A DNA stretch of 36,163 bases from NCBI GenBank assembly GCA_003223215.1, contig QHYH01000141.1, positions 1-36,163 on the forward strand, written 5' to 3'. This stretch comes from Acidobacteriota bacterium (GTDB lineage Bacteria; Acidobacteriota; Terriglobia; Acidiferrales; UBA7541). The notes under the pieces are model-generated. The model was not told the origin of the DNA. It did not search any database and saw only the letters and a list, made by a program, of their open reading frames with translations. Both the position numbers and the translations under genes were made by a program. Below are positions 5,996 to 34,421 of the stretch, piece by piece. Position 1 is the first letter of the stretch. Each line of letters starts with the position of its first letter.

Positions 5996-6421
5996 AGTTG
6001 CCCAGTTCGCAGACAGAACCTCAGCTTGCTCCAGAACCGTTAAAGTCGCCTTCTCTTGCTTGTCGGGTGGGTAGCCGTACTTCCGCAGGATACGCTTTAC
6101 GAGCACCCGCAAATGCGCTCGGATGTTTTCTCGAACTGTCCAATCGATCGTTGTGTTTTTCCGCACTGTTTCCACTAATTCTCGCGCAATGGTCCGAAGT
6201 GTTTCGTCGCCCAGCACTTTGACAGCGCTGTCGTTCACCTCCAGGGCGCCATAAAATGCTACTTCGTCATCGGTGAGATGTAGCTTTTCTCCGCGCTCAG
6301 CAGATTCGCGCATCTGTTTCGCTAGCCCGATAAGCTCCTCAATCACTTGAGCAGCTTCGATTGCCCGGCTTTGGTGCTTGCGAATGGTCTCCGCGAGCAT
6401 TTCTGAAAAACGGCGAGACTG
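5996..6421 (-). pseudogene. hsdR: Type I restriction endonuclease R subunit, C-terminal remnant
   Basis: About 140 residues match the C-terminal helical domain (DUF3387-like) of Hsd[88 protein letters not shown] and [16 protein letters not shown] full HsdR is about 1000 residues, with an N-terminal nuclease and two RecA-like motor domains; all of that is missing. The frame is open on both sides (5702-6625), but those flanks are unrelated, and the 3' flank is antisense istA. No hsdM or hsdS is nearby. It cannot restrict DNA and is a relic of a lost defence locus. Confidence 0.85.
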
Positions 6422-6768
6422 AACAACGTCGGCCTCACGCTCGTGGCTCCTGGCAATTCTGTACAGGACATGCGAATCCACGCGGGACGAGTTAAATCCC
6501 GCTATCGGTATCCTTGGGTATCCTGACGCTGAAAAATGCACCGAGATCGGAAAATGCGGTCGTTGCTGTAGAATCTTGCTTCCTTGATATTCGATCGGCG
6601 GAGGTAAGATTGCAGCAAAAAACAACGGCGTTTAGAACGTGAAACGCCTGCTACTTTGGTAGGAGCCAGACGCGGGCTGTTGCTCATTTCACTGCCGAGA
6701 CCGGAAAGGTGTTGCTCCTCTGACCACCGTCCTAATCGTGTTCTAGTGAGTTCGCTCTAAGGTCGCTA
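6422..6768. other. Gene-free stretch between hsdR and DUF2779 remnants
   Basis: About 350 bases in which I see no recognisable protein, RNA or repeat. The minus-strand frame joined to hsdR is open across part of it but has no family resemblance. It probably represents decayed sequence at a deletion junction. Confidence 0.4.
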
Positions 6769-16153: not shown

Positions 16154-19100
16154 TCACCAAATGACTTTCAGCGCCAGCTGAATCTGCCTCGACGGCGTCT
16201 GCGTGGACGTAATCAGCCCGGCGTTGGCGATCGCGACCCCCGCCGCGTCGAAGATGTTTCTGTTGTCCAGGGGCGGGGCAAAATTCGCCCGGTTAAATAC
16301 GTTGAAAAACTCTGTCCGGAACTGCACATTAAAGGCGTCCGAGACTTTCTTGATGTAATTGTTCTTGACCACGGAAAAATCAAAGTTCAACAGTCCTGGG
16401 CCAGTCAGTGTGTTGCGGCCCAGATTGCCGCGAAGCGTAATCGGATTAGGCACCTCGAAACACTGCGTCCTAATGTAGTGGTTGGGATTGCCCGCGTTGA
16501 CGTAGGAACCGCAGCCGGGACCTCTCTTCACATTTGGTATGTCGACGTTGGGGTCCGTACTTCCCACGCCGAGAGAATCTCCCGCAAACCCTGGAGTAAA
16601 GGGAACGCCCGTAGTCGCCTCGAACACTCCGCCCAGTTGCCAGCCTCTCAGTGCCCACACGCCGAACCCCATTTTCCACTTGGGGGCCCCGAGCACCCAG
16701 GTGTAATTCACATTCAAGTTGTGGCTTACATTGAAATCCGCAAGACCCCGATTCAATTTAAGATCAAAGAACAGCGGACTGGAGATGGAATTCGTGTACT
16801 CATCGCCCACCATGCTTCCTGAGCCTGTGTCGATGGTCTTGCCCCAGGTGTAGGAACCGGCGAACTGAGAAGAGTTACCGATCTTCTTTTTGATCTGCAC
16901 TTGAAGCGCGTCGTAGTACGAGCGGCCGTCCCAAAACCCCGCCGTGATCCGGCCTGCATCTGGATTCAGGCGCGTTCCGCTGCCCACCGGGGAAGGCCAC
17001 AGATAACCCTGTGGAGTCAAAGTTGGAAGAACGATGTCGGCATCTTCCGTGCGGAAAGGCTGATGCACAGCACGGGAGCCTACATAGCCAACCCGCAGGC
17101 TTAGACCTTCGAGAAGCTCATGTTGCATCGTGAGATTCCACTGCATCACGTAATTCCGGCCAGGTTTCGGCGCGAAGTACGCTTGCCGAAGCGTGTTAGT
17201 TGAGGCGGTCAGCGCCGCGTATGCCGCCACCGGGTAAGTTCCTGCAGCCAAGTTTCTTGCGCTCGCGGACTCAAAGAATGGCGCCGAAAACAGCTCGTTC
17301 ATTTGAAACAAATAGGGTAGTGGCAAAACGTCGAAAATCCCGAAGCCTCCACTCACCGCCGTCTTGCCATCGCCCATCGGGTCCCAGGAGAAGCCCACGC
17401 GCGGCTCAAAGTTCCCCAGGGTGGGATTCGAAATCAGCGGATCACTAAGGTGTGGTAGGGAGTCGGTGATCTGGCGGAGAACCGTCAGCTTTCCGTGCGC
17501 CTCTGTCATTACCGTGCTCATTTCATAGCGCAATCCCAGGTTCATTGTCAGGTTCGGTAGCCAACGCCAATCGTCTTGAAGGTAAGCCCCTGCGATGGTT
17601 TGCCGGAATGCCCTCGGGCTGACAGCACTCGGGATCGCCGCCGCAAGCGAGAATGGTTTGTTGGTGAGAAAATCAGAAATGGAATTGAAAAGAAACTCGC
17701 CCCCGGGCGTGGAAACGCCCAGGATATTGTCCCGAATTCGTTCGATCCCAAGGCCGAGTCTGAGCGAATGCTTCCCTTTCACTAGGGAAACATCGTCATA
17801 CGCCTGAATCGAGGTCCAATGAAAATGATAATTCGTTGTGCTGCCCAGGCCGCCCGTGAACGCCGTGATCCCCGGCACGGTCACCTCTGCGGCATTGTGT
17901 CCGGGCACAGTTCCGAAGGTTGGATCGCCGGCAGACTGATTGCCACTTGCGAAGGTCAGTCCGGTGGTCGCCACCACGCGGTATATCCCGAACCGGAAAG
18001 AATTGAGAATCCGCGAACCAAACGTATGCGCTTGGCGCACCGTGAAGAATTGCCTTCGCGAATCGTATCCCGTCAGTTTGTTGTTCAGCTCATCGGGCTG
18101 TCGCACGGTTCCGCTGTCAAACATATAGGTTCCCGAGACTTCGTCTCTTGTCGAGAATTTATGATCCATCCTCGTCGTGAAGTAATTCTCCGGTGTCACC
18201 TGCTGGCCGGAGAAGGTATAGATCCCGGTGTCGCCCGAACCTAGAAGACTCCCATTGGGCAGTGGGAAGAATGCATTCACAAAACGCAGCACGCTTGGAT
18301 CAACTGCAACCGGTCCAGTGGATAGGTTCCCGGCCCTCGCTGCTGCCGATGGCACAGTGTCAACCTGCGTGATGCCGGTGCTCGCTCGCAGGCCTTCATA
18401 ATCCCCGAAAAAAAAAGTGTGGTCCTTCCAAAGGGGCCCGCCCGCCGACGCTCCAAATTGATTACGCCGGAAAGGCGGCTTTGCGGAATCGAAGAAATTC
18501 CGCGCATCCAGCGCACTGTTTCGCAGGAACTCAAATACATCCCCATGGAAACTGTTCGTTCCCGACCGCGTGGAAGCGCCGACCACTCCGCCAGAAGACC
18601 GGCCTACTTGTGCCGGATAGTTGCTCGTCAAGACCGTGAACTGCTCAACCGCGTCGACTCCAAGGTTTACTCCCAGCGCGCTTCCGGGCGAGCCGTTCGC
18701 ATAGTCATTTACGCTGATGCCGTCGAGCCGCGCGTCATTTTGCCGTGGCCTTCCACCAGAGATCGTCATTTGCGTTCCGAAGCCATATCTTCCCTGCCCT
18801 GAAGATTGCGTGCGCGCCGTCGCGACGCCGGGCTCGAGGGCCGCCAAATCGGAGGCCGAGCGTCCGTTCAACGGCAACTCCGTCACATTTTGTGTATTGA
18901 CCACCCCGCTTACGGTTGACGAGCCCGCTTGCCCTTTTCCCGCGTGCAACACGAAGTTCGCCACGGCATCAGCATCAGCTCGAATCATTACCCGCACCCT
19001 GGCTGAATCGAAACCCGGAGCACTGGCCGTGAGCTCGTAACTTCCTGGCGCGAGGTTGGATATCTTGTAGGAGCCGTCTTCTCTTCCTATCGCTGAAAGG

Positions 19101-19387
19101 CTACTGCCATTGTCTGTATTGAGTACGGAAAGATGCGTGTTCGGAATTCCCGACCCTGATTCGCTTGTTACTTTCCCGGAGAGCGTTCTCGCGGCCACCT
19201 GTGAGAAAACCAGAGACGGTGCCACAAAAATCAGCAAGAAGGCGATGGGCGCTAGAGCATGAACTAGTTTTGGTTTAGACAATTCAAGATGGTACAGCCG
19301 TGCCCTGCGGATGTATTCTTCCTTCCAGATTTTCCCGGCGCCCCAGCCACGCTGACCCTCAACCGATTTTGGCGTTATACCGGACAT
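16154..19387 (-). CDS. Oar-like TonB-dependent receptor (up to 1077 aa)
   Basis: Paralog of the receptor at 11.4 kb, transcribed convergently with it. The signal segment is KLVHALAPIAFLLIFVAPSL then VFSQ. A carboxypeptidase-regulatory-like domain follows (RTLSGKVTSESGSGIPNTHL; GSYKISNLAPGSYELTASAP). The plug-like part has ELPLNGRSASDLAALEPGV, TISGGRPRQNDARLDGISVN and GGVVGASTRSGTNSFHGDVF. The barrel ends RQIQLALKVIW, a terminal Trp instead of Phe. The start is uncertain: ATG at 19387 has no clear ribosome-binding site and adds about 36 residues before the signal core. TTG at the LSKPKL segment (about 19280) is an alternative. It lies 87 bases downstream of a propeller gene and is probably the last gene of that operon. 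Confidence 0.88.
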   Translation of the reverse strand: MSGITPKSVEGQRGWGAGKIWKEEYIRRARLYHLELSKPKLVHALAPIAFLLIFVAPSLVFSQVAARTLSGKVTSESGSGIPNTHLSVLNTDNGSSLSAIGREDGSYKISNLAPGSYELTASAPGFDSARVRVMIRADADAVANFVLHAGKGQAGSSTVSGVVNTQNVTELPLNGRSASDLAALEPGVATARTQSSGQGRYGFGTQMTISGGRPRQNDARLDGISVNDYANGSPGSALGVNLGVDAVEQFTVLTSNYPAQVGRSSGGVVGASTRSGTNSFHGDVFEFLRNSALDARNFFDSAKPPFRRNQFGASAGGPLWKDHTFFFGDYEGLRASTGITQVDTVPSAAARAGNLSTGPVAVDPSVLRFVNAFFPLPNGSLLGSGDTGIYTFSGQQVTPENYFTTRMDHKFSTRDEVSGTYMFDSGTVRQPDELNNKLTGYDSRRQFFTVRQAHTFGSRILNSFRFGIYRVVATTGLTFASGNQSAGDPTFGTVPGHNAAEVTVPGITAFTGGLGSTTNYHFHWTSIQAYDDVSLVKGKHSLRLGLGIERIRDNILGVSTPGGEFLFNSISDFLTNKPFSLAAAIPSAVSPRAFRQTIAGAYLQDDWRWLPNLTMNLGLRYEMSTVMTEAHGKLTVLRQITDSLPHLSDPLISNPTLGNFEPRVGFSWDPMGDGKTAVSGGFGIFDVLPLPYLFQMNELFSAPFFESASARNLAAGTYPVAAYAALTASTNTLRQAYFAPKPGRNYVMQWNLTMQHELLEGLSLRVGYVGSRAVHQPFRTEDADIVLPTLTPQGYLWPSPVGSGTRLNPDAGRITAGFWDGRSYYDALQVQIKKKIGNSSQFAGSYTWGKTIDTGSGSMVGDEYTNSISSPLFFDLKLNRGLADFNVSHNLNVNYTWVLGAPKWKMGFGVWALRGWQLGGVFEATTGVPFTPGFAGDSLGVGSTDPNVDIPNVKRGPGCGSYVNAGNPNHYIRTQCFEVPNPITLRGNLGRNTLTGPGLLNFDFSVVKNNYIKKVSDAFNVQFRTEFFNVFNRANFAPPLDNRNIFDAAGVAIANAGLITSTQTPSRQIQLALKVIW

Positions 19388-19474: not shown

Positions 19475-20620
19475 CTATGGAATTACATCGTAGACCAAAA
19501 TTTTGGCCTCTTCGATGGTTGCTTCCTTTGATTGGGGGATGGGGGGCACCAAGATAACCAGCTTCGGGACCGCCGCGTAAAACCGCTTGAGTTCCGGCAC
19601 CAGCAGCGTGGTCTTCGCAATCGGCCCGGTCGCCACTCTTCCCAGGCGATCGTAATGGTCGGCGTCAATTTGTTTGAAAACTTCCACAAAACCGGTTGTT
19701 CCCGTGTAGTAGATGCGTTTGCTTGGCGCGTCAAACACGAGCTCGTCCACACCGCCTTCTGTGTCTATCGCATCGATCACTTTCCCGCTGTCCGAGTCCA
19801 TCACCACCAATTTACCGGGCTTATAAATATGTGACCGTTTCACGCGGCTGCCGATAAACAGCCGGTGATGGGCTGCATCCATGTCCACGGCATGGGGCTC
19901 CGGCCCTCTCGTGATGGGCCACATGGCGATCACCTTGTGCTTTTCGCGATCAATAACCACCATCTGGCTTGTGTCGCCCATCACTACAAACATTCTTGGT
20001 GATTCTGGATCGAGCACCATCCCCGCGGGATTCAGCCCCTCGACCTCAATGCTTCCCGCCAGTTTGCCTTTCTTGACGTCGACGATTTCGATCGAACCTT
20101 TCACACCCTCCTTTTTGAGACCATCGGCTCTATCCCCCAGATAAAATAGGTGGGTCGCCGGATCGTAAACCCCGTTGTCTGGCACCCTTCTTGAATCCTT
20201 ATCCAGTTCATGTCCCGTCAACGGGATATTCTTGATGAGCTCGTAAGTGTCTCCGCTGAATGCTTTGCACGTTGCATCTCCATCGTCCACCCAGATTTCA
20301 TTGGTCTCAGGGAGATAGATGGTCTTGCGCGGATCTCCTCCGAAACCCGTGATCGTGTGGATCACCTTGCCCACGCGCAGGTCTACGACTTCAATCGTCC
20401 TCTGGTGCTCGCCGGGCACGAACAGGCGCTGGCCTCTTACGTCCACTGCCATGTGGTCGAAGTAGCCCTCAACATTCGGCAACGAGATACTCTCGATCAG
20501 TTTCATCGGTGGGCTGCTCTGGCTCTGCGCCCCCGGAACTAGAGCCACGCACAAGGCGAACAGAACCGCCAGATACGTTTTCATTTTTTCGTTCTTCAGC
20601 TTATATTTCTCGAACATCAT
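19475..20620 (-). CDS. Secreted YncE/YVTN-type beta-propeller protein (381 aa)
   Basis: The start at 20620 (or the adjacent ATG at 20617) follows AAGGAGAGAGA. The frame is open further upstream, but that part overlaps the preceding gene and looks non-coding. The signal core is MKTYLAVLFALCVALVPGAQ after a charged leader. Blades include YFDHMAVDVRGQRLFVPGEH, NEIWVDDGDATCKAF, PRMFVVMGDTSQMVVIDREK and KRIYYTGTTGFVEVFKQID. It shares the closing TTLLVPELKRFYAAVP with the other two propellers but has an insertion in the middle (GLKKEGVKGSIEIVDVKKG) and one near the C-terminus (LVILVPPIPQSKEATIEE). It is 50 bases after a MmgE/PrpD gene and 87 before a receptor, so it links the two. Confidence 0.88.
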   Translation of the reverse strand: MMFEKYKLKNEKMKTYLAVLFALCVALVPGAQSQSSPPMKLIESISLPNVEGYFDHMAVDVRGQRLFVPGEHQRTIEVVDLRVGKVIHTITGFGGDPRKTIYLPETNEIWVDDGDATCKAFSGDTYELIKNIPLTGHELDKDSRRVPDNGVYDPATHLFYLGDRADGLKKEGVKGSIEIVDVKKGKLAGSIEVEGLNPAGMVLDPESPRMFVVMGDTSQMVVIDREKHKVIAMWPITRGPEPHAVDMDAAHHRLFIGSRVKRSHIYKPGKLVVMDSDSGKVIDAIDTEGGVDELVFDAPSKRIYYTGTTGFVEVFKQIDADHYDRLGRVATGPIAKTTLLVPELKRFYAAVPKLVILVPPIPQSKEATIEEAKILVYDVIP

Positions 20621-20670
20621 TCTCTCTCCTTGTGAAGACCCAAGCCCGCTCTCCGGTGAAGATACGCCCT

Positions 20671-22212
20671 TCAAATCCGTTGCAGCGCCGGCCGGAGTTC
20701 GCGGATATCCTTCACGTCTTCGAGAGCCAACACTTTGTTGATCAGGGTCGCGCAACTTGCCGCTCCCAGGATCGGCGCGATGAGGTCGTGCGCTTTCGCA
20801 ACAACCTCCTCGCGCGGCAGGGGATTCTCCGCCGTGCCCCGCACGTCTCGGACCCACTCGCTCAGTTGTGTGCCGTCGCCGAGCGTCACCTCGACGATGG
20901 CCTCGCGCCTGGGGCGGCGAGCATCGATCCGCGGGTCGGCGACAACCTCTACCTTGGCCCGTTGCTTCAGCACGGCTGGATCTTTCATCCGCGCCTTGTC
21001 ATGCGCGGATCGGAACGTGACCGTCTTATCCAGCAACATCACCGCGACCATGTGCTGCACGCAGATGTCCGGCATGTCGCGATTGCTTACCGTGTTGGCT
21101 TCGTCACTCGCGATCCGCACCACCACTTTCTTCGCGTCGTCAGCTGTGAATGAGCGCTTTTGAAAAAAACCGGCTAGCGCATCCAGCGGAGCCTGGATGG
21201 GCGAGCCCACCGTCCACTTCTTGATGTTCGTCCGGGTTATCTCGTAGCGTTCTCCGAGCTTTTCGACGAGTTGCGTGGGATTGGCCTTGACAACGCCATT
21301 TTCCCTCGGCGCCAGAGCATCGAAAAAATTGTCGGGGCCCGAAAAAATATCGTCAACACCTGTCCAACCCGCGCGGATCAGCATTCCGGCAATGACGCCG
21401 CCCGCTGCAGGCCTCCCCCCAAAGAGGAAAGCCTTCTCCATATGCTCCGCATCGCGGCTCCACGCTCCAATTCCCGATGTTTGTTGAGCACTGTAATCCA
21501 GCAGCAGACGCATTTGCTGGGCCTCAAGGCCCGCAGCGCACCCGGCCGCCGCACCCGCAGCGAAGGCCGCAACAGTGCCGTGGGTGCTCCTGTGTGTCGC
21601 CACCTGATAACCGGGCCCACCCATGCTCATCGTCACCCGCGTCCCGATGTCATAGCCAAGCGTGACCGCGCGCAAGAAGTGTTTCCCGGAAATTCCAAAC
21701 TGCTCGCCAGCAGCCAGCGCCGCCGGAACCGCGGAGACACCGGGATGCGATCGGGACGGGCCGTGCGAATCGTCAGTCTCGTCAGCGTGAGCCAGGACTC
21801 CGTTGGCCAGCGCTGCTTCGATGGGGCCGCACACGATGTTCGAAGCGACCACCGTCGCAACCTCTTTACCCCCATAGGCGCGCACAAATTCTATCGCCGC
21901 CCGGCCAGGACGTATTTCAGAACCGGAAATCATCGCGGCCAGCGTATCCAGAACGTGATGTTTCGCTTTCTCCGCTACGTCCTCCGGCAGTACCCGCTCT
22001 CGCGCCTCACTCATATACCTGCTGAGCTTGTCCATAACCGGACTCACGGCTTGCGCCGACTCATCCTGATTGTGGACTGTCTCAGCGAACGCTGTCACAG
22101 GCGGGATGGCCCTCGTTGCAAACGCCAAACCCGCGAGTTCAAGCAGGCTTCGCCGCGTCAAAATCGCCGCGCCACTTCCTGTGCGCTCATCTTGGCGTCC
22201 GTCATGCCCCAT
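20671..22212 (-). CDS. MmgE/PrpD-family protein with twin-arginine-like leader (513 aa)
   Basis: The family includes 2-methylcitrate dehydratase (PrpD) and cis-aconitate decarboxylase; members act on small di- and tricarboxylates. Visible family features: DKLSRYMSEARERVLPEDVA (60-79), HVLDTLAAMISGSEIRPGRA (87-105), AHADETDDSH (141-150), SRSHPGVSAVPAALAAGEQF and LGYDIGTRVTMSMGG. The C-terminal domain has VGSPIQAPLDAL and a PRREAIVEVTLGDGT strand. Residues 1-44 look like a Tat leader (LTRRSLLELAGLAFATRAIP, then AFA|E). That is unusual for this normally cytoplasmic family. It is colinear without gaps over the first 160 residues with the paralog at 23.6 kb. It has its own upstream block at 22299-22338 and probably starts a unit with the propeller and receptor. 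Substrate not predictable. Confidence 0.88.
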   Translation of the reverse strand: MGHDGRQDERTGSGAAILTRRSLLELAGLAFATRAIPPVTAFAETVHNQDESAQAVSPVMDKLSRYMSEARERVLPEDVAEKAKHHVLDTLAAMISGSEIRPGRAAIEFVRAYGGKEVATVVASNIVCGPIEAALANGVLAHADETDDSHGPSRSHPGVSAVPAALAAGEQFGISGKHFLRAVTLGYDIGTRVTMSMGGPGYQVATHRSTHGTVAAFAAGAAAGCAAGLEAQQMRLLLDYSAQQTSGIGAWSRDAEHMEKAFLFGGRPAAGGVIAGMLIRAGWTGVDDIFSGPDNFFDALAPRENGVVKANPTQLVEKLGERYEITRTNIKKWTVGSPIQAPLDALAGFFQKRSFTADDAKKVVVRIASDEANTVSNRDMPDICVQHMVAVMLLDKTVTFRSAHDKARMKDPAVLKQRAKVEVVADPRIDARRPRREAIVEVTLGDGTQLSEWVRDVRGTAENPLPREEVVAKAHDLIAPILGAASCATLINKVLALEDVKDIRELRPALQRI

Positions 22213-22368: not shown

Positions 22369-23556
22369 CTACGGCTGACCACTTGGTTTTCCGTCAGCGT
22401 TTTTCATAACACGGAACAATTCGCCCTTCGCCTCGAACCCCACACCCGGAATATCTGACAGCTTGACGTAGCTGTCCTTGACCGGTATGCCGTCAGCAAA
22501 TCCACCGAACGGCTGAAAGACTCCTGGATAGGATTCGTTGCCACCTAGCCCCAAACCCGCTGCGATGTTCAACGACATCTGGTGGCCTCCATGCGGAATA
22601 CAGCGGGCTGGCGACCATCCGTGGTCCTTCAGCATTCCCAAAATTCGGAGGTATTCGACCAATCCGTAGCTCAACGCGCAGCCGAACTGCAGGATGTCGC
22701 GATCCGGCCGCAGTTGCGCATAGCGAATGAGATTTCGCGCGTCTTGCAACAAGAATAGGTTTTTTCCCGTCGCCATTGGCCCCGCATAATGATTCGCCTG
22801 CCTGGCTTGCAGCTCAGAGTCCAGCGGATCACCCGGCTCCTCAAACCAACGAAGCCGGTACGGGACGAGCGCCTTCGCATAAGCGATAGCATGCTCCAAA
22901 TCAAAGCGCCCGTTCGCATCCACCGCCAATTGGTCAGAACTCTTCGCGACCTTGAGTACCGCTTCTATGCGTCGCAAGTCTTCCGAAAGCGGCGCTCCAC
23001 CGATCTTCATCTTCACCACGGAATAGCCAAGATCGAGATACCCTTGCATCACCTTCTGCAGTGCTGACAAATCCTTGGCCGGATAGTAGTAACCGCCTGC
23101 CGCATAGACGAAGACTTTGTCGTCGAAGACTCCTCCGCGAAAACGGTCTGCGAGTAACCGGAAAAGAGGCAGCCCGGCGATCTTCGCCACGGCGTACCAC
23201 ACCGCCATATCCAGCACCCCTACCGCAACCGATCTTTCGCCGCGTCCTCCTGGTTTCTCATTCCGCCTGACTACGTCCCAGACTCGCACCGGATCCAGGT
23301 TTTCGCCGCTTTCGTCGACCGGCGTTTCAGGCCCTGCAGCCTTAAGCCGCGGAATGAATCGCTCGCGCAGCAGTTCGCTTGGTGCGTATCTGCCGTTCGA
23401 ACTGAATCCGAAACCAACCACCGGCTTGCCCTGGCGAACCACATCCGTAACCAGCGCGAGGACACTCACGGTCATTTGGCTGAAATCAATGTAAGCGTTT
23501 CGAATTTCCGATTTGATGGGCACTACGGTTTCGCGGACATCTATAATCCTCACCAC
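22369..23556 (-). CDS. D-tartrate-dehydratase-like enolase-superfamily protein, catalytic residues altered (395 aa)
   Basis: GTG start (23556, with a second GTG next) after GGGAAGG. The whole length resembles bacterial D-tartrate dehydratase (TarD): IRNAYIDFSQMTVSVLALVT, NEKPGGRGERSVAVG, VFVYAAGGYYYPAKD, GYSVVKMKIGGAPL, QLAVDANGRFDLE, WFEEPGDPLDSELQA and CIPHGGHQMSLNIAAGLGLG. Expected active-site residues present: Lys184 (in KMK), Asp213, Glu239 and His322. The third metal ligand, expected as Glu in ATGENLF, is Lys265 (ATGKNLF, codon 22762-22764 AAA). The Asp paired with His322, expected in QFDCALSYGL, is Gly292 (QFGCALSYGL, codon 22681-22683 GGC). No signal peptide. It is 20 bases downstream of a MmgE/PrpD gene and probably cotranscribed. 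The fold is confident; tartrate dehydratase activity is doubtful. Confidence 0.88.
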   Translation of the reverse strand: MVRIIDVRETVVPIKSEIRNAYIDFSQMTVSVLALVTDVVRQGKPVVGFGFSSNGRYAPSELLRERFIPRLKAAGPETPVDESGENLDPVRVWDVVRRNEKPGGRGERSVAVGVLDMAVWYAVAKIAGLPLFRLLADRFRGGVFDDKVFVYAAGGYYYPAKDLSALQKVMQGYLDLGYSVVKMKIGGAPLSEDLRRIEAVLKVAKSSDQLAVDANGRFDLEHAIAYAKALVPYRLRWFEEPGDPLDSELQARQANHYAGPMATGKNLFLLQDARNLIRYAQLRPDRDILQFGCALSYGLVEYLRILGMLKDHGWSPARCIPHGGHQMSLNIAAGLGLGGNESYPGVFQPFGGFADGIPVKDSYVKLSDIPGVGFEAKGELFRVMKNADGKPSGQP

Positions 23557-23576: not shown

Positions 23577-25109
23577 CTATCTTGCTCGGGCTCGCTGCAG
23601 TAAGGGTCGCAGTCCCCGGATATCCTTTACCCGTTCCAGGTCGAACACACTCTCAACGAGCTTCGCGCATTGTGTCGCTCCCAGGACCGGTGTTATCAAG
23701 TCGCGGGCCTTCGCAACAATTTCCTCACGCGTCATGGGGTTCTTGGGCGTACCCCGCACACTATCAACCCGTTGTGTGAGGTGCGTCCCATCCGTCAGTT
23801 GGATCTCCGCAATCGCCACGCGCAAAGGCATCACGCGCTCTAATTGCTCATCAGGAATCAGTTTCACCTTTTCGCGTTCCCGGAGCGTCGCCACATCCTT
23901 CATGCGTCCTTTGTCGTGCGCCGAATGGAACGTAACCGTCTTATCCATCAGCATCACTGCGGCCATGTGCTGCAGGCAGATGTCCGGAATCTCGCGGTTG
24001 TTCACGATCGCCGCCTCGTCCGTCGCCAGCTGCACCGATACCTGTTGCACTTCATTCGAATGGAAGTCGCGCTGCTCGCGCAGGATTTCGAGGGCGTCCA
24101 GAGCCGCCTGGATTGGCGAACCTACCGGCCATTTCTTGATGTTCGTTCGCAGGATTTCATAACGCTCGCCTAGTTGTTCGATCAGTGCTGCCGGATCAGC
24201 ATGCGGGTTGTATGCTTGAAAGAAATTATCCTTCCCCGACAAGATGTCCTCGACGCCCGTCCATCCCGCTTGGACAACCAACGCAGATGTGACTCCGCTG
24301 CGCGCCGTCATGCCGCCGAAGTGGAATGCTTTCTGGATGTGGTCGGTGTCGCGGTTCCATGCGCCAAGGCCGGAGGATTGATGGGCCGTATATCCCAGAA
24401 GAAATCGCATCTGCTCTGCGTTCAACCTCGCGGCGCTGCCGGCGGCCGCTGCCGCGCCGAAAAGTGGCGAGATGCTGTGAGTGCTCCAGTGGCTCTCCGC
24501 TTCAAACTGCTGCCCACCCAGAGTCATTGTGAAGCGCGGTCCAACGTCGTAGCCGAGGGTCACGGCGCGCAGGAAGTGTGCCCCGCTGATTCCGAACCGC
24601 TCCCCAGCCGCAAGCGCAGCGGGCACGACCGCACACCCCGGATGTGATTGTGATGGCGCGTGGGAGTCGTCGGTCTCGTCGGCATGGGCCAGCATCCCAT
24701 TCGTCAGTGCCGCCTCGATCGGGCCGCATACAATTTTCGAGGCAACTACCGTTGCGACCTCCTTGCCGCCATACGCGCCGGCGAACTGCAGCGCCGCGCG
24801 TCCGGGCGTCAGCTCCGAACCCGAAATCATCGCCGCCACGGTATCCAGGATGTGTTGCTTCGTTTTCTCGATCACTTCGTCCGGCAGCTCGCGGCCACTC
24901 GCTTCGCTCATATATAAGCTGAGTTTGTCCATGACCGCGCTCATGCCTTGCCCAGTCAAATCCGGGCTGGGAAATGGTTCGACTAACGCCATTCCGGGCG
25001 GAATGGCCGCACTTGCGACCGCTAGACCTGCGAGTTCGAATAGCTTGCGCCGGGAGAGAATTGCCCGGTGGTCCTCTGCTGGTAGGTATTTGCTTAGTTG
25101 ATCTCTCAT
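23577..25109 (-). CDS. MmgE/PrpD-family protein with twin-arginine-like leader (510 aa)
   Basis: The start at 25109 follows AGGAAGGGG. It makes the protein colinear from residue 1 with the paralog at 20.7 kb, with the Arg pair at 20-21 in both; an ATG seven codons upstream is less likely. The leader is ILSRRKLFELAGLAVASAA then IPPGMA. Family features: DKLSLYMSEASGRELPDEVI, HILDTVAAMISGSELTPGRA, AHADETDDSH (141-150), SQSHPGCAVVPAALAAGERF and VGSPIQAALDAL. It heads an operon with the TarD-like gene and has the conserved block 81 bases upstream. Catalytic role unknown; a hydratase/dehydratase, decarboxylase or epimerase on a hydroxy-dicarboxylate is the family-based guess. The apparent export signal should be tested, since characterised relatives are intracellular. 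Confidence 0.88.
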   Translation of the reverse strand: MRDQLSKYLPAEDHRAILSRRKLFELAGLAVASAAIPPGMALVEPFPSPDLTGQGMSAVMDKLSLYMSEASGRELPDEVIEKTKQHILDTVAAMISGSELTPGRAALQFAGAYGGKEVATVVASKIVCGPIEAALTNGMLAHADETDDSHAPSQSHPGCAVVPAALAAGERFGISGAHFLRAVTLGYDVGPRFTMTLGGQQFEAESHWSTHSISPLFGAAAAAGSAARLNAEQMRFLLGYTAHQSSGLGAWNRDTDHIQKAFHFGGMTARSGVTSALVVQAGWTGVEDILSGKDNFFQAYNPHADPAALIEQLGERYEILRTNIKKWPVGSPIQAALDALEILREQRDFHSNEVQQVSVQLATDEAAIVNNREIPDICLQHMAAVMLMDKTVTFHSAHDKGRMKDVATLREREKVKLIPDEQLERVMPLRVAIAEIQLTDGTHLTQRVDSVRGTPKNPMTREEIVAKARDLITPVLGATQCAKLVESVFDLERVKDIRGLRPLLQRARAR

Positions 25110-25190
25110 GCTTTCCCCTTCCTGGGGCACCCCGCTATGGCTTTAACCTGTTCAAAAGTGGTCGCGCGAAATCGGTCCTCGTGATGAGAC

Positions 25191-26248: not shown

Positions 26249-28915
26249 CTATTCGTATCTCAAAGCGACCATCGGATCGACACGCATTGCACGCCACGCG
26301 GGAATATAACACGCTGCCATGGCCACTGCCGAAAATAAGATAGCGACTCCGAGGAATGTTGAGGTGTCGGTTGCCTTGATCCCAAAGAGAAGGTTTGTCA
26401 TCAAGCGGGTTAAAGCCCAGGAGCCTGCTAGGCCCACTGCAACACCAACAAGAGTAAGACCTGAGCCTTCCTTTATGATCAAACACAATACGCTGGCGCG
26501 CAGAGCTCCGAGGGCCATCCGGATTCCTATTTCAGCAGTTTTTTGACGGACAGAGTATGCGAGCAGTGCGTACAACCCTACCAGGGAGAAGACCAGAGCG
26601 ATACCAGAAAACGACGATAGGAGCGTCGTCTGAAAGCGCCGCTCTTCGGTTGCTTCGGAGACAAGCTGGTCCATGGTCCGAGTGTCGGCGACCGCCAAGG
26701 CGGGGTCGAGCACGCTTAATTCCCTGCGAACGGCGGCAGTAATCGTTTCCGGTTTCGTGGTTGTCCGAATAACAATCGATGCCGTTGGGAAGGTCGATTG
26801 CCAGAATGGCAGGTAAGCTTGTGGCCGCGGCTTCTCTTCCAGGCTTGCATTGCGGATGTCATCAACAACGCCAACGATGGTCCACCACGTCGGTTGAGCG
26901 GCGCCATCAATAAAGTGGAAGCGCTTCCCCAACGAACTTTGGCCCGGGAAATATCTCTCTGCGAATGTCCGGCTGACAATAGCCACATTCGGATGGCCTG
27001 CGGAATCGATATCTGTGAAATACCGCCCTTCAAGAAGGCGAATCCCCATTGCCGCAAAATAGTGGGGCGTAACGGACCTCGTTTGGAAAAAAACCTTCTC
27101 GTCAAAATTGTGCCCCTCTACCGCCAGCCAGCTGAGGCCTTCCGAGTGTCCGAGAGGCAAGTTCGTCACTGCCCCGGCTGCTTGTACGCCCGGCAAGACA
27201 CTGATCCTGTCGAGCAGGTCCCGGTAAAAGGCGATCTGGCGCTCGGGTTGGTATCTTGCGTCGAGGGAAAGGCTCACGGTAACCGTCGAATGTGGGTCGA
27301 AGCCTTTTTCGACGGACAGCACTTTGACGAGACTGCGGATGAGCAGCCCGGATCCCGTTAGCAACACAACTGTCAACGCTACCTGGGCAACGATTAGTCC
27401 CTGGCGAAACCGGCTTCGCGTGCCTTTGACGCTTCTATTTCCCGTTTGAGTCAGGACTTGGGCAGGATCGCAACGCGAAACGGCCAACGCAGGAAACAAA
27501 CCGAACAACAGGCTTGTCAAGATGGAAATGCTCAGCGCGAAGAGCAGAACTCGCACGTCAACGGATGTTTCCTCCAACCGCGGAATGTTCCCGGGATCGA
27601 GTCGCACGAGAACGCGAATCGAGGCGAATGCCAACAGGACTCCCAACGTCCCCCCAGAAATACCTAGAAAAAGAGATTCGGCGAGAAGCTGGCGAAGCAA
27701 GCGTGCCCGCCCCGCACCGAGGGCGGTCCTCACTCCCATTTCACGAATTCGAGCGCTACCACGCACCATCGCCAATCCTGCAACGTTGCTGCAAGCAATC
27801 AACAACAAAAGTCCTACAGCCCCCATCAGAAGCAGGAGCGCGTGTCGCGAACCACCGGTGACGGAATCGAACAAGGGCTGGACTTGCGCCCCGAACCCGC
27901 GATCCTTTGGCGGGCGCAGCAAATCAATGCTCGCCATGAGCGAACTCATCTCTGCCTGTGCCTGCTCCACGGAAACGCCCGGACGCAATCGGCCAATGGC
28001 GTCTCCAGCGCTGTCTTCGCGATTGGCCTTTTGCTCGGCTGGCATAGCCCAGGGGATCCAAATGTCGGTTACCTTGGGCGCATCGAGTACATCCGTGGCT
28101 CGCGGAAACGCAAAGCCAGCGGGCATAACGCCAATGATCCGATAAGGTCTCGCATCGAGGAGAAGTGTCTTGCCCAAAACGCCCCTCTCCGCTCCGAATC
28201 GTTCTCGCCACAAACTGTGGCTGATTACTGCGACTTGCTCGTGTCCGGGTCCGTCGTCCTCGGAATTAACCGTGCGTCCCAACTCTGGCGCCACTCCCAT
28301 CGTCTCGAAGAAGCTTCCTGTAACCCTTGCTCCACCCAAGGCGTCCGCGCGCCCATCCGCCGCAACATTGAATTTTGCAGTGCCAAATAAAGCGAGGCTC
28401 ACGAATGAGCGGTTCTGCTTTTGCAGGTCGAAGAAGTCTGCATTCATCGGTGTCAGATATTCGATAGGTAGTTGAAATCGCGGATTGGGCGACCATAGAT
28501 ATACAAGGCGATCGGGATGCGGGTAGGGCAGCGAACGTATCAGAACGGCATTGATTAAGCTAAAGACTGTCGTGCTGGCACCGATGCCGAGGACCAGTGT
28601 GAGAACGGCGACGGCGGTGAAGCCGGGAGACTTGCGCATAGTCCGCAACCCGTACCGCAAATCCTGAATCAGGTCTTGAATCCAGTTAACTCGGCGCGCG
28701 TCGCGACACTCTTCTTTTACCTTCTCCCCGCCGCCCAGGTCTAGCCGCGCACGGCGGTGCGCCTCTTCTTGCGTCATCCCCTGCACGACGTATTCCTCGG
28801 TTTTTCGTGCGAGGTGGTCGCGCAGCTCGTCGTCCAATTCCTGGTCCGCCTGCGCCCAGTGAAACAATGACCGGAGCCGCAGGGGAATCGTGAACAGCCA
28901 ATGTTCCGGTCGCAT
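26249..28915 (-). CDS. ADOP-type FtsX/MacB permease (888 aa)
   Basis: Start at 28915 after GGAGG. Residues 1-75 form the ADOP prefix ([35 protein letters not shown]). Next come a membrane helix (FTAVAVLTLVLGIGAST), a MacB-like extracytoplasmic domain (about 125-340), and a helix cluster (LLLLMGAVGLLLLIACSNVA; GARIREMGVRTALGAGRARL pattern). A second extracytoplasmic domain (about 490-730) and a last FtsX helix group follow (SGIALVFSLVGLYALLAYSV; EIGIRMALGALRASVL). The tail [11 protein letters not shown] is the family signature. Such permeases resemble MacB/LolC-type subunits, but no ATPase is encoded here and the substrate is unknown. Last gene of a four-permease array, 14 bases after the preceding stop. 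Confidence 0.92.
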   Translation of the reverse strand: MRPEHWLFTIPLRLRSLFHWAQADQELDDELRDHLARKTEEYVVQGMTQEEAHRRARLDLGGGEKVKEECRDARRVNWIQDLIQDLRYGLRTMRKSPGFTAVAVLTLVLGIGASTTVFSLINAVLIRSLPYPHPDRLVYLWSPNPRFQLPIEYLTPMNADFFDLQKQNRSFVSLALFGTAKFNVAADGRADALGGARVTGSFFETMGVAPELGRTVNSEDDGPGHEQVAVISHSLWRERFGAERGVLGKTLLLDARPYRIIGVMPAGFAFPRATDVLDAPKVTDIWIPWAMPAEQKANREDSAGDAIGRLRPGVSVEQAQAEMSSLMASIDLLRPPKDRGFGAQVQPLFDSVTGGSRHALLLLMGAVGLLLLIACSNVAGLAMVRGSARIREMGVRTALGAGRARLLRQLLAESLFLGISGGTLGVLLAFASIRVLVRLDPGNIPRLEETSVDVRVLLFALSISILTSLLFGLFPALAVSRCDPAQVLTQTGNRSVKGTRSRFRQGLIVAQVALTVVLLTGSGLLIRSLVKVLSVEKGFDPHSTVTVSLSLDARYQPERQIAFYRDLLDRISVLPGVQAAGAVTNLPLGHSEGLSWLAVEGHNFDEKVFFQTRSVTPHYFAAMGIRLLEGRYFTDIDSAGHPNVAIVSRTFAERYFPGQSSLGKRFHFIDGAAQPTWWTIVGVVDDIRNASLEEKPRPQAYLPFWQSTFPTASIVIRTTTKPETITAAVRRELSVLDPALAVADTRTMDQLVSEATEERRFQTTLLSSFSGIALVFSLVGLYALLAYSVRQKTAEIGIRMALGALRASVLCLIIKEGSGLTLVGVAVGLAGSWALTRLMTNLLFGIKATDTSTFLGVAILFSAVAMAACYIPAWRAMRVDPMVALRYE
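28786..28903 (-). repeat. 118-bp perfect repeat shared with 34180-34297
   Basis: The 5' coding region of the permease at 26.2-28.9 kb is identical over 118 bases to 34180-34297, the 5' end of the permease at 31.6-34.3 kb. Similarity continues with scattered mismatches over the ribosome-binding site. The rest of the two genes differs much more, so this is a recent duplication or gene-conversion tract. Confidence 0.9.
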
Positions 28916-28929
28916 ACTCCGACCCTCCT

Positions 28930-31362
28930 CTACTCATACCTCAAAGCGACCATCGGATCGACGCTCATTGCCCGCCGCGCTGGAATGTAGGTGCCAACGA
29001 GCGCGACTCCACCCAGCAGCAGCGACAAGGCAGCGAAGGTGAGGGGATCGTAAGGTCGAACGCCGTACAGCAGGCCGGCCAGCAACCGTGTGAGGCCCAA
29101 GGCCAGAATGATGCCCGCAACCAGGCCAATCAAGGTGGGACGCAGCCCCTCCCGGAGCACCAGCCCCAAAACGTCGCGCCGGGTGGCGCCGAGAGCCGAG
29201 CGGATGCCGAGCTCATGCGTGCGGCGACTGATCGAATAAGAAATCACCCCGTAGATGCCGATGCCGGCCAGAAGCAGAGCGATGGCGGCGAAGATGCCCA
29301 GCACGGAGGCGGAGACGTGCTGGCGCCAGATTGACTCGGAAATGACCTCCTGCATGGTTCGCAACTGTATCACTGGCTGATCGCTGTCGACCTGCTGCAC
29401 CGCCTGGCGCACGGCCATGGCCACGTCGAGCGGGTCCGACACCGTGCGGATGGCGAAGGTCACCAGGAAGGAAGCAAACGGGTGCTGAGCGTAGGGCTCG
29501 TACAACTCCGGCTGCGCCTGCGATTCAACCGAGTCCTGTTTAGAGTCCGCAACCACGCCCACGATCGTGGCGGACGCGCCTTTCGGGCAGACGCCGGGCA
29601 GTTGTTGGATGAGGGCGTCCTCTCCGGGCCAGTAGAGGCGCGCCATCGCCTGATTGACGATCCGAACGCAGGGAGCGTCAATCCGATTTTCGGCCTCGGT
29701 GAAATCGCGTCCCTCGACGAGGCGCGTGCCCATGGCCTGAAAGTACTCCGGACTGACGCCGCGTCCGGCTACCAGGACGGTGCTGCCAGGACCGCCAGGG
29801 GAGTTCGGCGGGGAGGGAAATGCGAGCGAGACATGGAATCCCGTGAACGGCAGGTTGTTCGCCATTCCCGCAGACTTTACGCCCGGAATGTCCCGGATAC
29901 GTGCCAACACGCCGCGGTAGAAGTCGGCAGACTGCGGGGGCGAATACTTGTAGTTCATCAGCGGCACGCGTACGGTCAGGAGGTGATCGGGATCGAATCC
30001 CGTTGGAGTGGCGGCCAGCTGCCGGAAGCTTTGAACCATCAAGCCCGCCCCGACGAGCAGCACCAGGGCGAGCGCGATTTCGCAGGTCAGCAGCGCGCTC
30101 TGCAGACGCGTTCCGCGAGCGCCGGCCGCAGCTCTTCCGTGCTCCTTCAGCCACTCGCTGATGTCGATGCGCGAAGCCCTCAAAGCCGGCAGCAATCCGA
30201 CGCCGATTCCGGTGAGCAGGGAGAGGGCCGCAGCAAAGCCAAAAACCGCCAGGTTCATCGAAATGTGGTGCAGCGCCTGGGTCTCAACCAGGTTGTACTG
30301 CGGAACCAGACTGACGATCACGGCGAGGCCCGAGCGCGCCAGCATCACGCCGCCGACGCCGGCTGCAGCCGCAAGCAGCACACTTTCCACCACCAGTTGC
30401 CGGACCAATCTCGGCCGACCAGCGCCCAGCGCGGCACGAACCGCTATTTCGCCCTGACGCGCCGTGCCCCGAGCGAGCAGCATGCTCGCCACATTCGCGC
30501 AGACGATCATCAGCATGAAAGCCACCGCGCCGAGGAGCGCGAAGATCGCCTCACGGAGCATTCCCCGAACCTCCGGACTCCTGAAGGGAACTACGGGAGC
30601 GCTCCACCCGGAGTTTGTCTTGGGGTACTGTACCGCGAGGCGCGCTGCGACGGTGTCCATGACGGCCTGAGCCTGCCGGAGCGTAACGCCTCGATTCAGG
30701 CGCGCGACCACGCTCAGCCTGCGATCCTCATGGTTCGCTCGGTCCGCCGCGCTGAATGTCAGCGGAGTCCACATCTGCGTGTTGGCTGCCGGAAACTCAA
30801 AGTCCGCTGGAGCGATTCCAATAACCCAGTACAACTTGCCGTCGAGCGCAAGCGCCTTCCCAAGGATCCGGGGATTAGACGCAAAGTGACTTCGCCAGTA
30901 CTGATGGCTCAGGATCACCGCCTGAGTCTCGTTCGGAGCGAACGTACGGCCGCGGAAGGCGTTGACGCCCAGCACTTGAAACAGGTTCGGTGTCACCGGC
31001 GACGCCCAGACTTCGTCCGGGTCGCCGCCGCCGGTCAGCGCGTGAAATTCCCACGACTGATACGCAGCGACTCCTGTGAACACCGGGGCCTGTGCTTGCC
31101 AGTCTGTGAAGTCTCCGGCGGACACTTCGTTGATCTCACCGGGCGCCGTCGTGGGGCCCTTTTCAGTGATCGCCACAAGTTCGGCGGACCTCGCATAAGG
31201 CGCCGAATGGAGCAGCACGGTGTCGACCACGCTGAAGATGGCGGTCGTGGCGCCGATGCCGAGGGCGAGGGTGATGATCGCAACCGAGGTGAATCCCGGG
31301 CTCTTGCGCAACATGCGGAGGCCGAAACGAAGATCTTGCGCGAGATCCTGCAGCCAATTCAT
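28930..31362 (-). CDS. ADOP-type permease, main part, separated from its prefix (810 aa)
   Basis: It begins [40 protein letters not shown], and contains two extracytoplasmic modules and two FtsX helix groups ([77 protein letters not shown]). It ends [14 protein letters not shown]. In siblings this is continuous with an N-terminal prefix. Here the prefix is in another frame (31359-31583), with a four-base ATGA overlap at 31359-31362. An alternative Met lies at 31371. The conserved CRD(A/M)R linker before the Met is still readable in this frame, which supports a small deletion as the cause. Possibly two coupled polypeptides, otherwise a recent frameshift or an assembly error. Confidence 0.85.
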
Positions 31363-31583
31363 TTTGCGCATATCCCGGCACCTTTTGTTTGTTCGACTCC
31401 GCCCATTTCAAGCAGCGCGATCCGCCGCGCCGCTTGCGCCGCCATTCCCTTGGCGACGTATTCCTCAGTTTTCTGTTCGATGTGATCCCAGAGTTCCTCC
31501 TCCAGTTCCTGGTCAACCTTTCTTTGGCGAAATAACGACCTCAACCGAAGAGGAAACATGTACAGCCAATGTTCAGGTCGCAC
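31359..31583 (-). CDS. Detached ADOP prefix domain (74 aa), frameshifted 5' part of the permease
   Basis: A GTG start at 31583, eight bases after GGAGG, gives [38 protein letters not shown] and [20 protein letters not shown]. It aligns with residues 1-70 of the sibling permeases (MRPEHW..., LDLGGIEQTKEKCRD). The frame slips around 31380: siblings read TK-E-x-CRD, whereas here it reads TKGAGICAK and then TGA. The ATG at 31601 is in frame but sits before the ribosome-binding site. On its own it would be a small cytoplasmic helical protein. Confidence 0.7.
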
Positions 31584-31597
31584 GACACGACCCTCCT

Positions 31598-34309
31598 TCA
31601 CTCATGTCTCAATGCAACCATGGGATCAACGCGCATGGCCCTCCGCGCGGGCAAGTAGCTCGCGGCGAGCGCGACCGCCGCCAACAACAGCGAAGCGGCG
31701 GAGTAGGTCAGCGGATCAAGGGGCGGCACGCCAATGAGCAAATTGCCGACGAGCCGGGCCATTGCGGCCGCGGCGAGAACTCCCGCAATAACGCCAACGC
31801 CTACGATGGCGAGTGCCTGAGCAAAAATCATTTTCAAGGTTTGAAATGGCTGAGCACCGAGCGCCATACGGATGCCGATCTCGTGAGTGCGCTGGCTCGC
31901 CGCGTAGGAGATCACGCCGTAGACGCCGACGACGGCGAGAAGCAGCCCGAGAGTTCCCAAGGCACCAGCCAGGGCCGCCACAAATCGGAACAGTAGGAAA
32001 CCATTCCAAGTGTCGAGCGCGTCGGTCATGGTTTGCACGTCGAAAACCGGCATGGCAGGCTCGAGAGAGTGGATCAGGCTGATCATTTCCCGCGCCAGCG
32101 CTTCGGGAGCGGCTGCGGTGCGGGCTTGAAGAGTCGCAATGGGATGAATGTGCTGGGCGAGTGGGACGTAGAAGAAGGGATGGATTTCCGTGAGGTCGTC
32201 AAGACCGCTGGAGGCCCCCCGGCTATTTTTGACTACGCCAATGATTTCCACGGAGTGGCTCGGATCATGGGTGGTGCTGAAGCGCCGGCCGATGGGATCC
32301 TGGCCGCGCCAGAAGCCATCGGCCATGGATTGGTTGACGATGGCTACAAATTGCGAGTCCCGAGTGTCGGAGTTGCGGAAATCTCGGCCACTAAGCAACG
32401 GGATGCGCATCGTCTGGAAATAATCCGGTGTGACAGCGTTGTAGCCCGCGAAAGGAATTCCCTCGTTTGGAGGGGCTTCATAGCCATCAACCTTCAGTCC
32501 GGCAGCGTAATCGTAATAACCCATGGGCACCGCGGCGGCGAGGCTGGCGGATTGAACGCCCGGGATGGCGTGGGCCCGGTCGAGAAGAGTCTGGAAGAAG
32601 CTGCGGGCATGAGTTTCGTCATAACCTGCTTCGTGCGGATCAATGGACAGATTCAGAACATGCGTGGGATCGAAGCCGAGGTCCGAGTGCTGAATGTTTT
32701 CGAGACTACGCGTGAAAAGGCCAGCCACAATCAGCAACATGAGCGAGCCGCCGACTTGCGCGGAGACGAGCGCGCTACGCAGACGATGGCCGCTAACACT
32801 GAAGGTGCGTCCCCCCTCATGAAGGACTTTGTTCACGTCGCCACGCGCAGTGCGAAGTGCCGGAACCGGTCCGACGAGCAAAGTAGTCAAAGCGGCGGCA
32901 GCCAAAGCGTAAACGAATACGCGCCAGTCAAAACGAAAATCGAGCACGATGGGGAGCGCCGTGTGGAACGAGATGGAGCTGAACGAGCGGCTGCCGCCGA
33001 CTCCGAGAATGATTCCGGCGGCGCAGCCCAGCGCGGCGAGCAGAAGGCTCTCGGTGAGCAACTGGCGGATGAGCCGGCCGCGCGTCGCTCCCAGGGCCGC
33101 TCGCATGGTGACTTCGCGCTGGCGCGCCGCCGCGCGGACCAGGCAAAGGCTGGCGATGTTCATACAGGCGAGGACAAGGATGGAAGCCGCGAGAATCAGA
33201 AACAACGCGCTCGCAAGAGCCAGTATGCGCGGACCAGCGGGGCCGAGCGACATGCTAACCGGGCCAAGTTGGATGGCGCGAAGCGTGAGCCAAGCATCCG
33301 CTTTCGCATTTTGCAGAGTCAGGCGCTGTGAGACCACTTGCATGGCTGAATCGGCTTGCTGCAGGTTGGCGTCTGGTTTTAACCGTGCAACCAGCGTGAA
33401 CCTTGGTTCACGCGCGGTGAGAAAGTCGTTCGACGCGTCTCCCAGCACCGCTGCCATTCCCACAGGCAGATAGCCTTGCGTGTCGAGCAAGGCATTAAGG
33501 CCATGGAAACTCTCCGGGGCGACGCCGATGATGGTTACCGGCTGGCCGTTGACGGAGGCTTTCTTGCCGACAATGCCAGGGTCGGCATTGAACCGCGATT
33601 TCCAGTAGGAGTAACTCAGAACAAGAACGGGACCGGCGCCGGCGACCTGTCCTTCCGAGGGAAGAATGAAACGCCCGAGGGCAGGCTTGATGTCTATGAG
33701 GTCGAAGAAATTACTAGCCACGTAGAACGCCCACATCGGCTGGCTCTTGCCGTCCACGCTCAGACCGTCCATCTGATACATCTGCAATGCGGAGACGTCC
33801 GAAAAAACATCCCGCGTCTCTTTGCGAATCTCGAGATAGTCCGGGTAGGAAAACGTCGTGCCAGTGCCGCCATCCTTCCCGGTAGACGCTAGAAAAACCA
33901 TCTGCTTCGGGTGGCTGAGGGGGAGAGGCCGAAGAACAAGACAATCCACCAGGCTGAAGATCGCGGTGTTTGCGCCGATTCCGAGCGCCAGTGTCAACAC
34001 GGCGACCGCTGTGAACCCGGGAGATTTCCGCAATACGCGCAGACCAAACTGCAAATCCTGTACGAAGTCCTGAATCAGATTTACACGCCGCGCGTCGCGG
34101 CATTTCTCTTTGGTCTGCTCGATACCACCTAGGTCCAGTCGCGCGCGACGGTGTGCCTCTTCTCGCGTCATCCCTTGTGCGACGTATTCCTCGGTTTTTC
34201 GTGCGAGGTGGTCGCGCAGCTCGTCGTCCAATTCCTGGTCCGCCTGCGCCCAGTGAAACAATGACCGGAGCCGCAGGGGAATCGTGAACAGCCAATGCTC
34301 CGGTCGCAT
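31598..34309 (-). CDS. ADOP-type FtsX/MacB permease (903 aa)
   Basis: The start at 34309 follows GGAGG; a Met 15 codons upstream lies within the intergenic inverted repeat and is less likely. Prefix [20 protein letters not shown] through ARRVNLIQDFVQDLQFGLRV, first helix [20 protein letters not shown], and an extracytoplasmic domain with SYSYWKSRFNADPGIVGKKA. The first helix group is around LALASALFLILAASILVLAC. A second extracytoplasmic domain has LNLSIDPHEAGYDE and GVVKNSRGASSG, then FtsX helices (GALGTLGLLLAVVGVYGVIS; THEIGIRMALGAQPFQTLKM). The tail is [11 protein letters not shown]. The stop at 31598 is followed after 14 bases by the next prefix start. Full length for the family; substrate unknown. 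Confidence 0.93.
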   Translation of the reverse strand: MRPEHWLFTIPLRLRSLFHWAQADQELDDELRDHLARKTEEYVAQGMTREEAHRRARLDLGGIEQTKEKCRDARRVNLIQDFVQDLQFGLRVLRKSPGFTAVAVLTLALGIGANTAIFSLVDCLVLRPLPLSHPKQMVFLASTGKDGGTGTTFSYPDYLEIRKETRDVFSDVSALQMYQMDGLSVDGKSQPMWAFYVASNFFDLIDIKPALGRFILPSEGQVAGAGPVLVLSYSYWKSRFNADPGIVGKKASVNGQPVTIIGVAPESFHGLNALLDTQGYLPVGMAAVLGDASNDFLTAREPRFTLVARLKPDANLQQADSAMQVVSQRLTLQNAKADAWLTLRAIQLGPVSMSLGPAGPRILALASALFLILAASILVLACMNIASLCLVRAAARQREVTMRAALGATRGRLIRQLLTESLLLAALGCAAGIILGVGGSRSFSSISFHTALPIVLDFRFDWRVFVYALAAAALTTLLVGPVPALRTARGDVNKVLHEGGRTFSVSGHRLRSALVSAQVGGSLMLLIVAGLFTRSLENIQHSDLGFDPTHVLNLSIDPHEAGYDETHARSFFQTLLDRAHAIPGVQSASLAAAVPMGYYDYAAGLKVDGYEAPPNEGIPFAGYNAVTPDYFQTMRIPLLSGRDFRNSDTRDSQFVAIVNQSMADGFWRGQDPIGRRFSTTHDPSHSVEIIGVVKNSRGASSGLDDLTEIHPFFYVPLAQHIHPIATLQARTAAAPEALAREMISLIHSLEPAMPVFDVQTMTDALDTWNGFLLFRFVAALAGALGTLGLLLAVVGVYGVISYAASQRTHEIGIRMALGAQPFQTLKMIFAQALAIVGVGVIAGVLAAAAMARLVGNLLIGVPPLDPLTYSAASLLLAAVALAASYLPARRAMRVDPMVALRHE
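34180..34297 (-). repeat. 118-bp perfect repeat shared with 28786-28903
   Basis: Partner of the tract at 28786-28903. It covers codons of the prefix domain from about residue 5 to residue 43. Exact nucleotide identity, including third positions, distinguishes it from ordinary paralog similarity. Confidence 0.9.
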
Positions 34310-34331
34310 TCTCCGGCCCTCCTCTACTCCT

Positions 34332-34391
34332 ATGAAAATAGCCGCGTATCTCATTGAAAAGATTGGCTCAACAGTGAGCGGCTATTTTCAT
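34332..34391. repeat. 14-bp perfect inverted repeat between two permease genes
   Basis: ATGAAAATAGCCGC (34332-34345) and its exact complement GCGGCTATTTTCAT (34378-34391) flank 32 bases. The structure fills most of the gap between the stop at 34422 and the start at 34309. No T-run follows the stem in the direction of transcription, so it is not a standard terminator. It may regulate read-through or translation of the next gene, or be a small mobile repeat. Confidence 0.75.
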
Positions 34392-34421
34392 CCTTCGTTG
34401 TGGCTCTCCGAGAGCCATGAG

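Follow-up and report, generated by a model that had tools for sequence, protein, structure and literature searches.

A TarD-like gene of an Acidobacteriota bacterium with lost invariant residues: probable early decay of a redundant duplicate

Enzymes of the mandelate racemase subgroup of the enolase superfamily bind Mg through three carboxylate ligands, which sit where three consecutive strands end, and possess a KxK base and a His–Asp dyad. In D-tartrate dehydratase (TarD), the catalytic set consists of Lys184, Asp213, Glu239, Glu265, Asp292 and His322; Glu265 serves as third Mg ligand, and Asp292 is paired with the catalytic His322. Bacterial missense pseudogenes and dead duplicates are a different type of described system, in which the reading frame stays open, invariant residues are lost and an intact second copy is present.

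The window analyzed here is a stretch of 36,163 nucleotides from an Acidobacteriota bacterium (assembly GCA_003223215.1, contig QHYH01000141.1), and it encodes a TarD-like protein (window TarD). Compared to the TarD of Bradyrhizobium japonicum (Bll6730; PDB 2dw7 and 1tzz) and the Azospirillum enzyme (4kem), window TarD shares the fold as well as Lys184, Asp213, Glu239 and His322, but carries Lys265 in place of Glu, Gly292 in place of Asp, and the replacements N52S, H105R, D121Y, E169V and S269L. Compared to bacterial missense pseudogenes, it is no different in kind, and the loss has seemingly been caught before any stop codon or frameshift appeared. We consider it probable, at roughly three chances in four, that window TarD is a redundant TarD orthologue that has recently been without purifying selection and is now an early missense pseudogene with an open frame. 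A search of the literature on tartrate dehydratase, mandelate racemase metal ligands and dyads, enolase-superfamily pseudoenzymes and missense pseudogenes listed no title on this protein.

The TarD-like gene and its operon

Window TarD had been described, in a reading made from the DNA alone (the sequence-only reading), as a near full-length TarD-like protein without a frameshift, and the follow-up bears out both statements. The uninterrupted frame of 395 codons, whose coordinates and strand were rechecked, matches Bradyrhizobium TarD 2dw7 over residues 2–385 (561 bits, E = 1.4e-167), which places it in the TarD family by near full-length homology. It matches 4kem over residues 2–386 with 610 bits and 71% identity to that solved structure. 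Once a one-residue gap close to position 140 is passed, its numbering equals that of 2dw7, and its start region matches those of two sister genomes, G017 and G015. The capping domain and barrel of the mandelate racemase subgroup are both recognized, from the Pfam match to MR_MLE_C (96.9 bits) and from an AlphaFold2 model (pLDDT 88.2, pTM 0.89) that superimposes on 4kem with a TM-score of 0.93, indicating a full TarD fold. In this model, positions 184, 213, 292 and 322 lie at predicted strand ends and position 265 lies two residues past a predicted strand, in keeping with the barrel. Since the alignment used for the prediction contained 23 intact homologues, the same fold would be predicted for window TarD either way.

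The gene lies between two genes of the MmgE/PrpD family (Table 1). The operon order PrpD1, TarD, PrpD2 and propeller is syntenic in four sister genomes (G017, G015, G023 and G011), whose TarD orthologues are 84–89% identical to window TarD and, unlike it, retain all catalytic positions. A TonB-dependent receptor gene adjoins the operon in G017, G015 and G023 as well. Because the match of the propeller protein to G017 and G015 starts at its residue 84, its true start is probably near 20623.

Table 1. Coordinates of the features discussed (positions in the window)
Feature	Position	Strand	Description
TonB receptor	16154..19387	(-)	TonB-dependent outer-membrane receptor
Propeller	19475..20857	(-)	YncE-like beta-propeller protein (listed ORF)
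PrpD2	20671..22212	(-)	MmgE/PrpD family, twin-arginine-like N-terminus by eye
Window TarD	22369..23556	(-)	TarD-like protein, 395 aa, GTG start, catalytic set incomplete, enolase superfamily
Codon 292	22681..22683	(-)	GGC (Gly); Asp in 89/89 others
Codon 269	22750..22752	(-)	TTG (Leu); Ser in 89/89 others
Codon 265	22762..22764	(-)	AAA (Lys); Glu in 89/89 others
Codon 169	23050..23052	(-)	GTG (Val); Glu in 89/89 others
Codon 121	23194..23196	(-)	TAC (Tyr); Asp in 89/89 others and in 2pp0
Codon 105	23242..23244	(-)	CGC (Arg); His in 89/89 others
Codon 52	23401..23403	(-)	AGT (Ser); Asn in 89/89 others
PrpD1	23577..25130	(-)	MmgE/PrpD family, twin-arginine-like N-terminus by eye

Several other observations were made on the operon and its surroundings. 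PrpD1 and PrpD2 look exported, judging by eye from their twin-arginine-like N-termini, and flank a cytoplasmic-looking TarD with no visible leader. In genome G002 (loci L120 on C212 and L121 on C141), two PrpD genes are adjacent with no TarD between them, and TarD is on another contig. In G029, the contig ends inside PrpD2, so that this genome is uninformative about a parallel loss of TarD. Three metagenome-assembled genomes labelled Gammaproteobacteria (L024, L025 and L027) carry TarD genes of 72–79% identity, and a PrpD1-like gene lies immediately upstream; this may reflect transfer or wrong binning. Elsewhere in the window, a frame of 307 aa at 5702–6625 on the (-) strand matches a type I restriction endonuclease subunit over the C-terminal domain alone (PF11867, 205 bits) and is apparently a remnant. 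Four large MacB/FtsX-type permease genes stand in tandem at 26249–36152 (-), and the two of them that were scanned against NCBIfam belong to the ADOP family of duplicated permeases.

Altered catalytic and invariant positions

Window TarD was aligned to 2dw7 and to 89 other distinct homologues, which were drawn from the best 80 of 179 genome-contig loci, the genus (36 genomes) and 396 genomes of the phylum. The alignment agrees with the residues that had been read from the sequence: Lys184, Asp213, Glu239 and His322 are present, as is Lys182, and positions 265 and 292 hold Lys and Gly. Two residues are therefore altered out of the TarD catalytic set of six (K184, D213, E239, E265, D292 and H322). 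Asp213 and Glu239 are in place as Mg ligands but the third is replaced by Lys; Lys182, Lys184 and His322 are in place but the Asp of the dyad is replaced by Gly.

Glu265 and Asp292 had been claimed as the family residues, and both are found in 89 of the 89 other homologues, which disposes of the possibility that TarD relatives carry other residues at these columns. Asp121 is equally constant in these 89 sequences, from which duplicates had been removed and to which phylum loci had been added. In a first count of 91 other tblastn rows, in which several genomes occur twice, Asp121, Lys182, Lys184, Asp213, Glu239, Glu240, Glu265, Asp292 and His322 were present in every row; the later count without duplicates comprises 90 sequences including window TarD. 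Even the distant L-talarate/galactarate dehydratase 2pp0, when aligned to an intact paralogue of window TarD (described below), has Asp, Glu and Asp at positions 121, 265 and 292. The Lys265/Gly292 pair was found in none of the 89 other sequences, and none of them shares the altered residues of window TarD at 121, 265 and 292. Misalignment at 265 and 292 was considered and rejected, as both are ungapped columns between conserved motifs. Columns 265 and 292 are correctly placed, and no other sequence of this sample shows the loss.

Each of the two replacements had been ascribed to one transition. For E265K this agrees with the GAA codon found in G017, G015 and G011. Codon 292 is less simple: it is GAT in these same three genomes and GAC in G023 and in the paralogue, and the ancestral codon is reconstructed as GAT with a posterior of 0.57. 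Because the ancestral state is ambiguous, D292G took either one or two changes.

The surroundings of the two positions had also been thought intact. This is correct for the frame, but five more residues that are invariant in the family are altered. Across 379 columns, 104 are invariant in the 89 other distinct homologues, and window TarD breaks seven of them (N52S, H105R, D121Y, E169V, E265K, S269L and D292G). All such columns are intact in 74 of the 90 sequences, while one is broken in 12 of them, two in three and seven in window TarD; after removal of positions 265 and 292, which had been picked for their oddness, window TarD still breaks five, more than the two of the next worst sequences. 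A total of 29 amino-acid changes map to the window TarD branch, and seven of these fall in the columns (106 of 384) that are invariant in the set of 91 other rows, compared to 8.0 expected if the changes had been placed blindly. Thus, the changes in window TarD hit conserved columns at roughly the frequency expected by chance.

Selection on the branch and the timing of the loss

A GY94-type codon model with F3x4 frequencies was fitted to eleven TarD rows on an IQ-TREE topology, and the branch-test values are uncorrected for multiple testing. The codon sets excluded any column with a gap in any row, the TarD of G002, and the PrpD1 of G023, which is cut by a stop near its aligned start. The PrpD1 sequences of G017, G015 and G011 were trimmed at the terminal stop and the G023 propeller after upstream stops, and the TonB-receptor set consisted of the window, G017, G023, L019 and L021. 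The dN/dS calculation, which had been proposed as a check, gave an omega of 0.226 on the window TarD branch vs 0.064 elsewhere (2ΔlnL = 18.9). An omega of 1 over the whole branch was also rejected (2ΔlnL = 21.2), so the loss must be late or partial. The value of 0.226 is compatible with neutral evolution over the final fifth of the branch as well as with weaker constraint along its whole length.

The neighbors of window TarD provide an internal comparison. On the same branch, omega did not rise in PrpD1 (0.124 vs 0.092), in PrpD2 (0.085 vs 0.080) or in the TonB receptor (0.089 vs 0.091), and it rose more weakly in the propeller (0.157 vs 0.094, p = 0.07). Decay of the whole operon is excluded by the absence of a rise in PrpD1, PrpD2 and the TonB receptor; since the flanking PrpD genes are still selected, the proposed decay is that of window TarD. 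When other tips of TarD, PrpD1 and PrpD2 were taken as foreground, raised TarD values were found for the short tips G015 (0.33) and G017 (0.25), in both of which the catalytic residues are intact despite the rise, and for G011 (0.187, p = 6.6e-4), whose catalytic positions are also intact. For G017 and G015 the rise extends to PrpD1 and PrpD2, and part of it is therefore a general effect of recent branches.

The location of the changes gave a sharper contrast. In columns that do not vary elsewhere in the codon set, changes were counted for six of the eleven TarD tips, and the ratio of replacements to silent changes was 15/31 in window TarD vs 14/147 in the other five summed (Fisher p = 1.5e-4) and 9/101 in the two PrpD genes on the window branch (p = 3.6e-4). 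The contrast had a p of 9e-4 when the TonB receptor (17/105) was joined to the PrpD neighbors, and it weakened to p = 0.006 when the propeller (19/51) was joined as well. The window branch carries 44 silent changes in the 384 codons of TarD, 85 in the 478 of PrpD1 and 90 in the 419 of PrpD2; because TarD has fewer of them than its neighbors, its omega is somewhat inflated. As in missense pseudogenes, window TarD combines lost invariant residues with a relaxation of constraint that is specific to gene and lineage, part of the rise being common to other recent tips.

Timing was estimated from the 44 silent changes. Neutral rates were derived from base composition and the fitted kappa, and a consensus of four near orthologues stood in for the ancestor. 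The part of the branch spent without constraint is put at about 0.20 when all replacements are used and at 0.22 when deep-invariant columns are used, and these estimates agree. Over this time, substitutions, the one type of change modelled, should have produced about 0.9 stop codons, and the chance of seeing none is roughly 0.4. The open frame of window TarD is thus no argument for function.

A second TarD copy and the rival explanations

The same assembly, a draft of 279 contigs with 97.65% completeness and 1.96% contamination, contains a second operon of the PrpD-TarD-PrpD layout on contig C145 (PrpD2, TarD, PrpD1). Its TarD (C145:37729–38883) is 80% identical to window TarD and differs from it in retaining every catalytic position. 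It also differs in its surroundings, since the cluster adjoins a tartrate dehydrogenase (an Iso_dh protein, 554.8 bits against a cut-off of 470.4), a dicarboxylate transporter of the DctA type (623 bits, cut-off 513) and a symporter of the TcuC (tricarballylate) type (695 bits, cut-off 445), and includes a third PrpD. In a search of the assembly with this dehydrogenase at E 1e-100, the sole match was the C145 protein itself. TarD occurs in 11 of the 36 genomes of the genus, this one included, and two TarD genes are found in this genome alone. A tartrate dehydrogenase is present in 10 of the 11 TarD-bearing genomes, and the exception is 63% complete. In the tree, the C145 TarD clusters with TarD of other species (support 100). 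Together with the syntenic orthologues of window TarD, this grouping suggests that both copies are old and that the loss is recent.

These results argue for decay of a redundant duplicate. The C145 copy would have made window TarD dispensable, redundancy as the cause being suggested by one genome, and the lineage could afford the loss because an intact TarD lies in the fuller tartrate cluster of C145. Selection on window TarD would then have lapsed late on the lineage, and missense changes would have struck the protein at random, including the metal ligand and the dyad Asp. With Lys265 and Gly292, window TarD would probably neither stabilize an enediolate intermediate nor catalyze dehydration. 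A very recent loss of function was one of two readings proposed from the sequence alone, and it is favored by the conservation-blind changes, the branch-specific rise in dN/dS, the intact second copy and the four intact syntenic orthologues.

The other proposal, that the scaffold has been repurposed for new chemistry or for binding, has no positive evidence in its favor. A retained non-catalytic role is the main rival but is unlikely. In this view the barrel would still fold and would serve a structural or regulatory function, perhaps by forming mixed oligomers with the C145 TarD or with PrpD; the rejection of omega = 1 over the whole branch and the retained frame and start region leave room for it. 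The branch omega well below 1, the predicted full TarD fold and the continued constraint on the PrpD neighbors agree with such a role, but these features are also expected if constraint was lost in the last fifth of the branch, when about one stop codon was due, and the fold prediction drew on intact homologues. Furthermore, invariant columns were struck at the chance rate, and the residues at 121, 265 and 292 recur in no other homologue. A more specific form of this idea is more doubtful still: the broken TarD would persist as a subunit for regulation or assembly, combined with the C145 TarD, and the two would be a duplicated enolase-superfamily enzyme pair in which one member is a pseudoenzyme caught at its origin.

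A new active site, in which Lys265 and Gly292 act with Lys184 and His322 and metal binding is altered or absent, is the most improbable of the explanations. Lys182, Lys184, Asp213, Glu239 and His322 would be available to it, but it would lack a Mg ligand as well as the Asp of the dyad, omega gives no excess of replacement over the neutral expectation, and the type is represented by a single sequence. New chemistry is also disfavored by the loss of invariant residues away from the metal site and dyad, D121Y and E169V among them, and by the lack of the same changes in any of the relatives compared. A sequencing or assembly error, or a consensus of mixed strains, is scarcely more probable; a draft in 279 contigs with 1.96% contamination could harbor one, but seven invariant positions are altered along the gene by a mixture of transitions and transversions, and the branch has its 44 silent differences in an unbroken frame.

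Decay of a redundant duplicate, the preferred reading, is ordinary gene decay that is unusually easy to see, and no new system is indicated. It provides a clear natural case in which an enzyme decays through missense changes only, redundancy having apparently come first, and the intact orthologues, the intact paralogue and the PrpD neighbors under selection serve as built-in controls. Because window TarD is a TarD by homology with an incomplete catalytic set, its annotation as D-tartrate dehydratase is unwarranted. The case also serves as a warning that activity is not safely annotated from an open frame together with some 70% identity to an enzyme of solved structure.
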